From: Sphingomonas beigongshangi
GTDB taxonomy: Bacteria > Pseudomonadota > Alphaproteobacteria > Sphingomonadales > Sphingomonadaceae
Length of the DNA stretch: 64,000 bases
NCBI RefSeq assembly: GCF_016820445.1
Contig: NZ_JADHDT010000004.1
Location: forward strand, 248,001-312,000
Direction: 5' to 3'
The notes below the pieces were generated by a model, which was given only the letters and a program-made list of their open reading frames with translations, had not been told where the DNA came from and did no database searches. Both the position numbers and the translations under genes were made by a program. This document shows positions 1 to 2,704 of this stretch, one piece after another. Each line of letters begins with the position of its first letter. The first letter of the stretch is position 1.

Positions 1-576
1 GAACGAGGACGCGGCCTCGCGCCGGCAGCTCGCCAGCGCGTCGGCAAAGTCGGCGGCATCGTCGACGCGGCGCATGCCCTTGCCGCCGCCGCCCGCCACC
101 GCCTTGATCAGCACCGGATAGCCGATCGTGTCGGCCTCCGCGCGGAGCCGCTCGGCGCTCTGGTCCTCGCCCAGATAGCCCGGCGTGACCGGCACGCCCG
201 CCGCGATCATGCGCGCCTTGGCCGCGTCCTTCAGCCCCATGGCGCGGATGCTCGCGGGGGGCGCGCCGACCCAGACCAGGCCGGCGGCGATCACCGCTTC
301 GGCGAATTCGGCATTCTCGCTGAGGAAGCCATAGCCGGGGTGGATCGCTTCGGCCCCGCTGTCGCGGGCGGCGGCGATGATGCGGTCTGCGACGAGATAG
401 CTTTCCCGCGCCGGGGCCGGCCCGATGTGCACGGCATCGTCCGCCTCGCGCACGTGCAGCGCCTGTGCGTCGGCGTCCGAATAGACGGCCACGGTGCGGA
501 TGCCGAGCCGCCGCGCGGTCCGGATGATCCGGCAGGCGATCTCGCCGCGATTGGCGATGAGGAGGGACTCGATCAT
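1..576 (-). CDS. Methylcrotonyl-CoA carboxylase biotin-carboxylase (alpha) subunit, 5' part only
   Basis: This is the N-terminal 192 residues of a biotin-dependent acyl-CoA carboxylase alpha subunit; the gene runs off the left window edge. Visible motifs are IANRGEIA (7-14), HPGYGFLSEN (79-88) and the ATP-grasp glycine loop KAVAGGGGKGMR (158-169), all typical of biotin carboxylase domains. The product would carboxylate its biotin with bicarbonate and ATP. I assign it to 3-methylcrotonyl-CoA carboxylase because isovaleryl-CoA dehydrogenase and a matching carboxyltransferase lie upstream on the same strand. Propionyl- or geranyl-CoA carboxylase cannot be excluded from this fragment. An AAGGA ribosome-binding site lies 8 nt before the ATG, directly after the palindromic repeat that closes the preceding DUF559 gene. 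Confidence 0.9.
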   Translation of the reverse strand, partial: MIESLLIANRGEIACRIIRTARRLGIRTVAVYSDADAQALHVREADDAVHIGPAPARESYLVADRIIAAARDSGAEAIHPGYGFLSENAEFAEAVIAAGLVWVGAPPASIRAMGLKDAAKARMIAAGVPVTPGYLGEDQSAERLRAEADTIGYPVLIKAVAGGGGKGMRRVDDAADFADALASCRREAASSF

Positions 577-587
577 CTTCAAATCCT

Positions 588-992
588 TCATTCCTCCCCG
601 GCACGGGGAGGTGGCAGCCCGTAGGGCTGACGGAGGGGAAGTCGCGCACGGGCGGCGGCGACGATCTGGCTCACGACCGCATCGAGGTCGCGCAAAATGT
701 CCGCGGCTGTCACCCGCATGGTGGCGATCCCGTGCAGCAGCAGCCAGGCGTCTCGGTCCTTGTCGAAGCCCGGCTGATCGCCATGATCATGCGCCGCGCC
801 GTCCACTTCGATGCAGAGCCGGGCGGCGGCACAGAAGAAGTCGAGAACATAGACTCCGGCAGGATGCTGCTTGCGAAACTTGAGATCGGCCGGGCGGCCT
901 CGCAGCGCACGCCACAGCACGATTTCCGGCAGGGTCATCGTACGACGCAGGCGTCGCGCCCGAAGGACGGTCGGGGCAGATGCCCTCAGCAT
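588..992 (-). CDS. DUF559 (COG2852-like) endonuclease-domain protein
   Basis: A 134-residue protein with the DUF559 fold pattern: LRRTMTLPE near the start, then KFRKQ (38-42), the acidic pair DFF (D51) and IEVDG (E62, D64), and a following histidine (H68). This resembles the PD-(D/E)xK-like active site of very-short-patch-repair-type nucleases; family members are annotated as endonucleases but their role is largely unknown. It lies between the beta and alpha genes of the carboxylase operon, where no gene is usually expected. Both flanks are palindromic repeats in inverted orientation (593-638 and 1029-1080). The last 17 or so residues (LPLRQPYGLPPPRAGEE) are encoded by the downstream repeat. 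The chosen ATG at 992 lacks a clear ribosome-binding site; M19 is a possible alternative start. Confidence 0.8.
   Translation of the reverse strand: MLRASAPTVLRARRLRRTMTLPEIVLWRALRGRPADLKFRKQHPAGVYVLDFFCAAARLCIEVDGAAHDHGDQPGFDKDRDAWLLLHGIATMRVTAADILRDLDAVVSQIVAAARARLPLRQPYGLPPPRAGEE
593..638 (-). repeat. Palindromic intergenic repeat, left copy, overlapping the DUF559 3' end
   Basis: On the plus strand this reads CCTCCCCG (593-600), a 3-nt loop, CGGGGAGG (604-611), then a second hairpin CAGCCC (615-620), 3-nt loop, GGGCTG (624-629), and a terminal GGAGGGG (632-638). It has the same order of parts as the copy at 1029-1080 but in the opposite orientation. The DUF559 reading frame runs through the whole element and stops at 588-590. 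Such REP-like elements are common between genes in sphingomonads and Caulobacter relatives. Confidence 0.8.
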
Positions 993-1028
993 GATGCACG
1001 CCGATCGAGGGAGCGGCACGTGCGTCTG

Positions 1029-1080
1029 CCCCTCCACCGCGCCGCTGCGCGGCGCGATCCCCCTCCCCGTTCCGGGGAGG
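1029..1080 (+). repeat. Palindromic intergenic repeat, right copy, upstream of the DUF559 gene
   Basis: On the plus strand this reads CCCCTCC (1029-1035), then a hairpin CGCGCCGC (1038-1045), 3-nt loop, GCGGCGCG (1049-1056), then the hairpin CCTCCCCG (1062-1069), 3-nt loop, CGGGGAGG (1073-1080). Read on the minus strand it matches the layout of the left copy. The 8-bp CCTCCCCG hairpin is identical in both, while the second hairpin differs in sequence but still pairs perfectly. This suggests selection on structure. Confidence 0.8.
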
Positions 1081-1104: not shown

Positions 1105-2694
1105 TCACATCCGGAACACGCCGAAGCGGGGCGCTTCGGCAATGGGGGCGTTGAGACAGGCGTCGAGCGCGAGGCCGAGCACGTCGCGCGTCTGGGCGGG
1201 ATCGATGATCCCGTCGTCCCACAGCCGCGCGGTCGCATGCCAGGGATTGCCCTCGTCCTCGTAGCGCGCGCGGATCGGCGCCTTGAACGCCTCCGCCTGG
1301 TCCGGCGACCAGCTCTCCGCGTCGCGGTGGACGGTGGCGAGCACGCTCGCGGCCTGTTCGCCCCCCATCACGCTGATCCGGCTGTTGGGCCAGGTGAACA
1401 GGAAGCGAGGCGAATAGGCGCGGCCGCACATGCCGTAATTGCCCGCGCCGAAGCTGCCGCCGATCAGGATCGTGATCTTGGGCACGCTTGCCGTCGCCAC
1501 GGCGGTGACGAGCTTCGCACCGTGCTTGGCTATCCCCTCCGCCTCGTACCGGCCGCCGACCATGAAGCCGCTGATGTTCTGCAGGAACAGGAGCGGCACG
1601 CGGCGCTGGCAGGCGAGTTCGATGAAATGCGCGCCCTTCTGCGCGCTCTCGCTGAACAGCACGCCGTTGTTGGCGAGGATCGCGACGGGCATGCCATAGA
1701 CATGCGCGAAGCCGCAGACGAGCGAGGCGCCGTAGAGCGCCTTGAACTCGTGGAACTCCGATCCGTCGACCAGCCGCGCGATCACCTCGTGCACGTCATA
1801 GGGTGCGCGCACGTCCTGCGGGATCAGGCCATAGAGATCGTCGATCGGATAGAGGGGATCGCGGGCCTCCTGGCGGTTGACCGGCGCATTGTGCTGCGGC
1901 GGCAGCGTGGCGACGATGTCGCGGACGATCGTCAGCGCATGATCGTCGTCCTGCGCAACGTGATCGACGACGCCGGACCGGCGGCCGTGCGTGTCGGCGC
2001 CGCCCAGTTCCTCGGCGCTGATCACCTCGCCCGTCGCGGCCTTCACCAGCGGCGGGCCGGCGAGGAAGATCGTCCCCTGCCCCGCGACGATCACCGTCTC
2101 GTCGGACATGGCGGGGACATAGGCGCCGCCCGCGGTGCAACTGCCCATCACGCAGGCGATCTGCGGGATGCCGAGCGCGGACATGTTCGCCTGGTTGAAG
2201 AAGATGCGGCCGAAGTGATCGCGATCCGGAAACACCTCTGCCTGGTGCGGCAGGTTGGCGCCGCCCGAATCGACCAGGTAGATGCACGGCAGCCGGTTTT
2301 CCTGCGCGATCTCCTGCGCGCGGAGGTGCTTCTTCACCGTCAGCGGATAATAGGTCCCGCCCTTCACGGTCGCGTCGTTGCAGACGATCATCACCTGCCG
2401 GCCCGACACCCGCCCGATGCCGGCGATCATGCCCGCACCGGGGACCTCGCCGTCATAAAGGTCGTTCGCCGCCAGCTGGCCGATCTCCAGGAACGGGCTG
2501 CCCGGATCGAGCAGACGCTCGACGCGGTCGCGGGGCAGCAGCTTGCCACGGCTGGTGTGCCGTTCTCGCGCCTTGTCGCTGCCGCCCAGCGCCGCCCGCG
2601 CGACATCGGCGCGCAGTCGCTCGGCGAGCGCGCGATTGTGCGCGACGAGCGCGGGATCGATCGTCGCGGTGGCAGGGATGACGGGCGCGCTCAT
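1105..2694 (-). CDS. Methylcrotonyl-CoA carboxylase carboxyltransferase (beta) subunit
   Basis: A 529-residue carboxyltransferase of the acyl-CoA carboxylase family, about the usual length for MCC beta (around 535). It would move the carboxyl group from biotin to 3-methylcrotonyl-CoA in leucine breakdown. Two crotonase-like halves are visible, with the oxyanion-hole segments [14 protein letters not shown] in the N half and [16 protein letters not shown] in the C half. It starts 10 bases after the isovaleryl-CoA dehydrogenase stop, so the two are surely co-transcribed. A GAGG site lies 8 nt before the ATG at 2694; a GTG one codon upstream (2697) is possible. The alpha subunit should follow directly but is displaced by the DUF559 cassette. 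Confidence 0.93.
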
Positions 2695-2704
2695 CACAGA
2701 TGCC

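Follow-up and report, generated by a model that had tools for sequence, protein, structure and literature searches.

A DUF559 gene enclosed by two inverted two-hairpin repeats occupies the gap between the carboxylase beta and alpha genes (positions 588–1080) of a 64,000-nucleotide stretch of the Sphingomonas beigongshangi genome, hereafter the window. We read this segment as one unit, in which a DUF559 nuclease gene lies within an inverted pair of triplex-type REP elements and which represents the gene-bearing member of a REPIN-like system, and we give this reading a probability of about 0.68.

Layout of the cassette

Both elements follow one order from the outside inwards: the outer palindrome CCTCCCCG-NNN-CGGGGAGG comes first, then an inner hairpin, and the third arm GGAGGGG is innermost. 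On the left, sequence reading and the shuffle test below place the outer palindrome, CCTCCCCG-GCA-CGGGGAGG of subtype F, at 593–611 on the plus strand; it is followed by the inner hairpin CAGCCC-GTA-GGGCTG (615–629, plus strand; from folding and reading) and, on the gene side, by the third arm GGAGGGG (632–638, plus strand), the mirror of GGGGAGG and thus a triplex-motif arm. On the right, the outer palindrome (minus-strand CCTCCCCG-GAA-CGGGGAGG, 1062–1080) is inverted relative to the left one, the inner hairpin CGCGCCGC-TGC-GCGGCGCG (1038–1056, minus strand) has a sequence unlike its left counterpart, and the third arm again lies on the gene side (minus-strand GGAGGGG, plus-strand CCCCTCC, 1029–1035). 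Between them the DUF559 gene, identified by Pfam and by its structural model, runs along the minus strand (588–992; 134 aa, likely ATG at 992, stop at 588–590), with the Pfam domain at 654–965 (minus strand). The start of the carboxylase alpha gene (1–591, minus strand), which we take to be the biotin carboxylase, and the beta gene (1105–2697, minus strand), presumably the carboxyltransferase, lie outside the unit; the label of leucine operon given by the initial annotation agrees with the role that we assume for these two genes.

Within the 64 kb window, CCTCCCCGNNNCGGGGAGG with at most one mismatch is found only at 593–611 and 1062–1080, whereas 0.01 matches were expected by chance (100 shuffles) and none of the shuffles held two. 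The description of the whole gap as repeat, DUF559 gene and inverted repeat, from which this analysis started, is therefore borne out for 588–1080. Single-stranded DNA folding of the two elements gave z values of −3.7 and −4.6 against shuffles. The exact F-type palindrome has three copies in the whole 3.6 Mb genome, two of them at this gene. Since the DUF559 frame reads through the left repeat (588–640), with its stop codon just past the left outer palindrome, the C-terminus PLRQPYGLPPPRAGEE is repeat-encoded; the end of the L001 protein, DPSRKREGSR, resembles it. An Rfam scan of 400–1300 returned no family at threshold, no intron, intein or methylase gene was seen beside the DUF559 gene in the window stretch read, and the element ends carry no GTAG foot, one GTAG lying within the left inner hairpin.

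A predicted Vsr-like nuclease

The open reading frame between the repeats belongs to DUF559 (Pfam PF04480; E 7e-25, 87.5 bits, cut-off 20.6), which was its only Pfam match, with none to Y1_Tnp. Its predicted structure (pLDDT 86.5, pTM 0.77) was closest to 3hrl, a solved DUF559 protein (Z 15.8), followed by the I-Bth0305I homing endonuclease domain (3r3p, Z 14.1) and Vsr (1cw0, Z 11.0), so that profile and fold both assign it to the DUF559/YcjD family. Conserved positions of the domain (134-aa numbering) are E23, D51, E62, D64, H68, D77 and R80, with D51, D64 and D77 invariant in 66 proteins and E23, E62 and H68 retained in at least 90%. In our reading, the conserved acidic residues are probably catalytic, and by modelled fold and these residues the protein is a putative Vsr-like or EDxHD PD-(D/E)XK nuclease, with cleavage predicted. 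The match to NCBIfam PRK09767 (75.9 bits) is far under the cut-off of 218, and PADLOC matched DpdF in part (E 5.8e-8; 94 residues aligned, profile length 1078) and mREase_II more weakly.

An established function for DUF559 was not found in the open-access PubMed Central literature as far as its text is available, and the titles and abstract openings of the papers there that contain the word are silent on repeats. According to the available text of PMC12907096, a methylase mutant of Caulobacter cannot mount its response to DNA damage without VsrA, a DUF559 protein that the authors interpret as a mismatch repair nuclease; this requirement suggests that members of the family cut DNA in cells.

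Palindromes around DUF559 genes in the genus

The genus sample comprised 61 genomes, of which 57 had a DUF559 match. The 216 matches counted over the genus include weak ones that are probably not DUF559; among the matches listed, 153 genes from the 57 genomes entered the typed set (20 without subtype), and most cassettes at the carboxylase gap fall outside this set. The genome that contains the window has three DUF559 genes; the palindromes at the two outside the window belong to subtypes other than F, the second gene with CCCCTCCCGC-NN-GCGGGAGGGG palindromes on both sides and the third with CCCTCTCCC-NNN-GGGAGAGGG twice on one side.

At 75 loci, palindromes no more than 200 nt from the gene and with CCTC or CTCCC as an arm were present on both sides in 61 cases, on one side in 14 and on neither in none, compared with 0/6030 (both sides) and 243/6030 (one side) at random positions in 40 of these loci under the same 200 nt limit. 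The larger set of 153 loci, for which the limit was 250 nt and the arm rule slightly wider, gave 119 with palindromes on both sides, 31 on one and 3 with none (L235, L242 and L254). ParE toxin genes from the same genomes (n = 30, 200 nt) had palindromes on both sides in no case, on one side in 1 and on neither in 29.

Of 269 flanks, 196 have a mirrored version of the G-rich arm no more than 60 nt from the gene-proximal palindrome, compared with 13, 10 and 15 of 269 after shuffling. It is found exclusively towards the gene in 163 of these flanks, exclusively towards the outside in 18 and in both places in 15. This layout is the architecture of the BoxC, PIT or TM intrastrand triplex repeats, which have been described since the 1990s and, in the available text of Holder et al. 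2015 (PMC4666352), are reported from over 260 bacterial genomes. The inner hairpins were compared in 84 distinct elements, collected by outer arms and third arm from the loci in hand, and 68 different hairpins were found. A perfect inner stem of at least 6 bp is present in 49 of the 84 elements and absent in 35 (shuffled loops, 1.6%), and swapping stem arms between the 49 perfect-stem elements gave a mean pairing of 56%. That the second hairpin differs between copies and still pairs, as first noticed in the window, thus holds for both hairpins there and for these 49 elements.

Subtype matching, protein phylogeny and sites

Palindromes were classed into ten subtypes by arm and loop. The left and right subtypes agreed in 49 of 50 cases, where shuffling expects 6.8 and the highest of 2000 shuffles reached 17; in a larger set they agreed in 93 of 95 cases. 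Mapping subtypes onto a tree of 75 domains required 12 changes (minimum 9, shuffled mean 46), and onto the 152-domain protein tree 16 changes (minimum 9, shuffled mean 91.1), with none of 200 shuffles as low. Among 44 typed comparisons with the nearest protein at another site, the subtype was shared in 40. Together, the 119 of 153 genes with palindromes on both sides, the 93 of 95 matching pairs and the 16 changes against 91 strongly support the proposal of the initial annotation that these repeats and DUF559 genes belong together.

By flanking DNA, the 153 genes occupy 58 sites, the largest of which hold 22, 18 and 17 genes; site numbers are upper bounds because diverged flanks were counted as new sites. 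For several subtypes most genes share one site (A 17/20, B 20/24, I 13/20, F 9/13 and J 5/5), while others are scattered (D, 12 genes at 11 sites; G, 12 at 10; E, 20 at 8), and a few sites hold two subtypes, such as site 4 with 4 I and 3 B genes. Much of the gene–repeat pattern is therefore shared descent, and the genes of several subtypes look vertically inherited, mostly at one conserved site each. Loci L067 and L070 have common flanks and form one site with different DUF559 genes in opposite directions and different palindromes.

Repeat numbers and gene-less inverted pairs

A general palindrome pattern that covers most subtypes was counted in the 61 genomes; it misses the window's subtype F (0 matches in the window), which was therefore counted apart. 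This pattern occurs 4 to 393 times per genome, and its reversed control 0 to 11 times. Palindrome number correlates with DUF559 number (rho 0.73 over 61 genomes; 0.71 allowing for genome size), the reversed control doing so weakly (rho 0.32); the four genomes without DUF559 contain 14, 7, 4 and 6 palindromes. The repeats are thus not independent of DUF559, and the clustering with DUF559 genes in related genomes, for which the initial annotation had proposed a test, is found, although ParE counts also correlate with palindromes (rho 0.47).

Subtype-specific counts, given as medians of the palindromes beyond the gene's own two, follow the genes. Subtype A palindromes number 31 in the 19 genomes with an A gene and 0 in the 42 without (p 9e-5), subtype D palindromes 17 in 11 genomes with a D gene and 0 in 50 without (p 1.7e-4), and subtype F palindromes 15 in 13 genomes with an F gene and 5 in 48 without (p 0.02). 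Exceptions are G058, with 111 D palindromes and no typed D gene, and G031, with 62 A palindromes and no A gene. Of 12 pairings of a gene with palindromes of another subtype, 6 also reached p < 0.05, including B genes with D palindromes (p 6e-4), and kinship therefore contributes to the count correlations.

Movement of ordinary REPs by RAYT (Y1) transposases, with DUF559 unrelated, was considered because the architecture resembles that of REPINs, as set out in the available text of PMC3116915. The Y1_Tnp domain of RAYTs is present in 4 of the 61 genomes, matches nothing in the genome under study and is missing from G051, which reaches the maximum of 393 palindromes; this scarcity largely refutes a RAYT as the mover, and we regard such an origin as very improbable. 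A second alternative is that DUF559 is a passenger and the repeat pairs are moved by other host machinery. The repeats without a typed cognate gene in G058 and G031 would fit a passenger, as would the circumstance that movement by DUF559 is something we infer, but the matching of repeats to protein clades would be unexpected, the acidic residues are conserved across 66 proteins, and the other accessory family tested, ParE, is enclosed in 0 of 30 loci. We consider a passenger role improbable.

Repeat pairs also occur without a gene. Among 54 listed of the 200 D palindromes of G018, 46 form 23 pairs and 8 are single, and 22 of the 23 pairs are spaced 81–87 nt apart. The purine-type loop comes first and its complement second in 20 of the 23 pairs, the other order being seen once and two pairs being unclear, so that the second copy is inverted. 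The window's genome has two gene-less F-like pairs, 119 nt apart (L013 and L018). Among the matches listed, the D-type DUF559 cassettes of G033, G047 and G050 have their ends in the same inverted order, and the gene-bearing unit therefore looks like a repeat pair that encloses a gene.

The carboxylase gap in relatives

The comparison covered the 30 best-matching carboxylase loci, including that of the window. A DUF559 cassette with such palindromes lies beside beta in 9 of the 30, alpha starts directly after beta in 6, and other DNA occupies the gap in 15. Relatives with an empty site, which the initial annotation had proposed to look for, thus exist, and conservation of the gene at precisely this position does not extend to all relatives. 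Counting G005 and G010, which were found separately, 11 genomes have a filled gap. The DUF559 gene and beta are codirectional in 4 of these, like those of the window, and face opposite ways in 7, with proteins from cassettes of opposite direction up to 67% close (L139 and L130); in all 11 the first palindrome begins 23–29 nt and the second 447–545 nt after the last beta codon. In 6 of the 11, additional DNA separates the cassette from alpha, or alpha did not turn up in the sequence covered. The two orientations, the similar spacing and the empty sites indicate that the stretch enclosed by the palindromes behaves as one unit, with more than one insertion or inversion behind it; one insertion followed by inversion between the repeats is an alternative history for this gap. 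Around the junction, the six empty sites have diverged so far that no target duplication can be defined. Palindromes like TCATCCTGAACTCGTTTCAGGATCC were seen at the carboxylase gap of other genomes (L133, L149 and L156). Various repeats and additional genes seem to accumulate in this gap.

These observations bear on the view that DUF559 is a host repair or structure-clearing enzyme of Vsr type, next to which the repeats are regulatory or target sites spread by other processes. A fold near Vsr, the mostly single conserved site of several subtypes and the part of Caulobacter VsrA in the DNA damage response, as given in the available text of PMC12907096, all point in this direction, but a host repair enzyme leaves unexplained the boundaries on both sides, the match of clade and subtype across sites (40/44), the two orientations beside one gene and the gene-less inverted pairs. 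We hold it to be unlikely, and prefer to see the gene-bearing unit as a member of a repeat system.

Breadth beyond the genus

Across the phylum, a DUF559 match, in some cases weak, was found in 46 of 150 genomes. Twenty-eight best-scoring loci from other genera and classes were examined, of which two fragments were dropped. In the remaining 26, C/T-rich palindromes within 260 nt lie on both sides in 16, on one side in 9 and on neither in 1, compared with 43, 294 and 2126, respectively, of 2463 random positions. The arms differ by group (CCCTCTCCC, CCTTCTCCC, ATCTCCCCC and even CCCCTCTTTG). Single plasmid examples have palindromes on both sides in Deinococcus, Picosynechococcus and Pseudanabaena and on one side in Synechocystis, while Azospirillum, two E. 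coli examples and a gonococcal example are weak or one-sided. The DUF559 genes on the Picosynechococcus and Pseudanabaena plasmids (L188 and L190) are flanked by CCCCCGATTCGGGGG or CCCCCCAATTCTGGGGGG, and it is possible that these cyanobacterial cases are an AT-richer version of the same system.

Chance combined with shared descent would account for the association if GC-rich intergenic palindromes were common and the DUF559 genes counted were close copies occupying one place. Many of the genes are indeed orthologous, the 153 cassettes falling at 58 sites with up to 22 at one, but neither the 0 of 6030 random positions nor the cross-site subtype match of 40 in 44 would then be expected, and outside the genus 16 of 26 loci are enclosed against 43 of 2463 random positions. 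We judge this explanation hardly credible; in its simple form, chance is refuted within the sample by the random positions, the ParE loci, the phylum loci and the window shuffles.

The E. coli ycjD locus

The ycjD gene of E. coli K-12 is annotated as DUF559, and in the K-12 MG1655 record (L197, 1983–2704, sapF–fabI) it adjoins a TM/BoxC repeat. The repeat 3' of ycjD in the K-12 record is identical to the sequence of TMECO 9, which is common to TMECO 16, 19 and 22, and it is most likely TMECO 9 itself: this element is placed at 1,351,239–1,351,204, and the ycjD region of CJ236 (a 4,641,652-base record) at 1,350,943–1,352,242, which fits if the coordinates follow MG1655. At least 80% of the 2.3 kb ycjD locus is present in 3362 of 5426 E. 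coli genomes and the E. coli control genome has no DUF559 match, so that some strains lack ycjD. In three strains read that have no ycjD, efflux genes occupy the position, with no precise empty site, and records without the full locus have 2 to 7 places matching some part of the query among the matches listed.

In the available text of the 2015 study (PMC4666352), these repeats are linked to genome instability in E. coli, and mobility genes are said never to have been found around the E. coli copies. Its main text contains no word beginning with DUF, nuclease or YcjD.

Relation to known systems and proposed mechanism

The system is closest in organisation to REPIN–RAYT. In both, the gene has palindromes of its own on either side, every type of gene goes with a particular type of repeat, scattered inverted pairs of the repeat occur, and the gene often occupies one conserved site. 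The window protein is a predicted PD-(D/E)XK Vsr-like nuclease, however, rather than an HUH Y1 transposase, and its repeats have C/T-rich arms and a mirror third arm in place of the GTAG foot. The unit is therefore REPIN–RAYT-like yet not a member of that system, because the HUH transposase and the GTAG foot are missing. With the BoxC, PIT and TM repeats, as described in the available text of PMC4666352, the window elements share a G/C-rich hairpin with a mirror third arm, an intergenic position and, at times, an arrangement in inverted pairs, although no partner gene is described there for those repeats. The outer arm of the window elements is CCTCCCCG as opposed to CCCTCNCCC, and their second loop holds a hairpin of 15–19 nt where the TMECO consensus has a second loop of 3 nt. 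Vsr and the EDxHD enzyme I-Bth0305I share the catalytic fold and acidic residues with the window protein, whose gene, unlike theirs, is bounded by repeats. CGTC-tagged REPs, described in the available text of PMC3733652 as abundant palindromes without a dedicated transposase, differ from the window repeats in sequence.

The initial annotation had named the DUF559 protein as a possible partner that binds, spreads or processes the repeats. The partnership stands as an association, while spreading goes beyond the evidence, and several subtypes look vertically inherited. If the protein does act on the repeats, it may recognise the cognate hairpin or triplex end while replication or transcription keeps the two strands separated, and may nick the DNA beside that end; repair of the nick could then copy or move the pair of repeats and, in rare cases, the unit that carries the gene. 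The gene, often a single vertical copy, would act in trans on dispersed pairs, paralleling the action thought to be exerted by RAYT transposases on REPINs, by a different chemistry.

On present evidence it is fairly probable that the DUF559/YcjD nucleases are the missing partner of the BoxC, PIT and TM repeats, with clade-specific recognition, and that they define a second, RAYT-independent class of REPINs, whose repeats would be spread and rearranged through structure-specific Vsr-type cutting in Pseudomonadota ranging from E. coli to Sphingomonas, with a possible extension to Deinococcus and cyanobacteria. Such a cognate link, if true, would explain both the BoxC, PIT and TM repeats and DUF559, a common nuclease family, would open genome instability driven by repeats to tests in E. 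coli K-12, and would mean that REPIN-like repeats arose around a second, unrelated enzyme.
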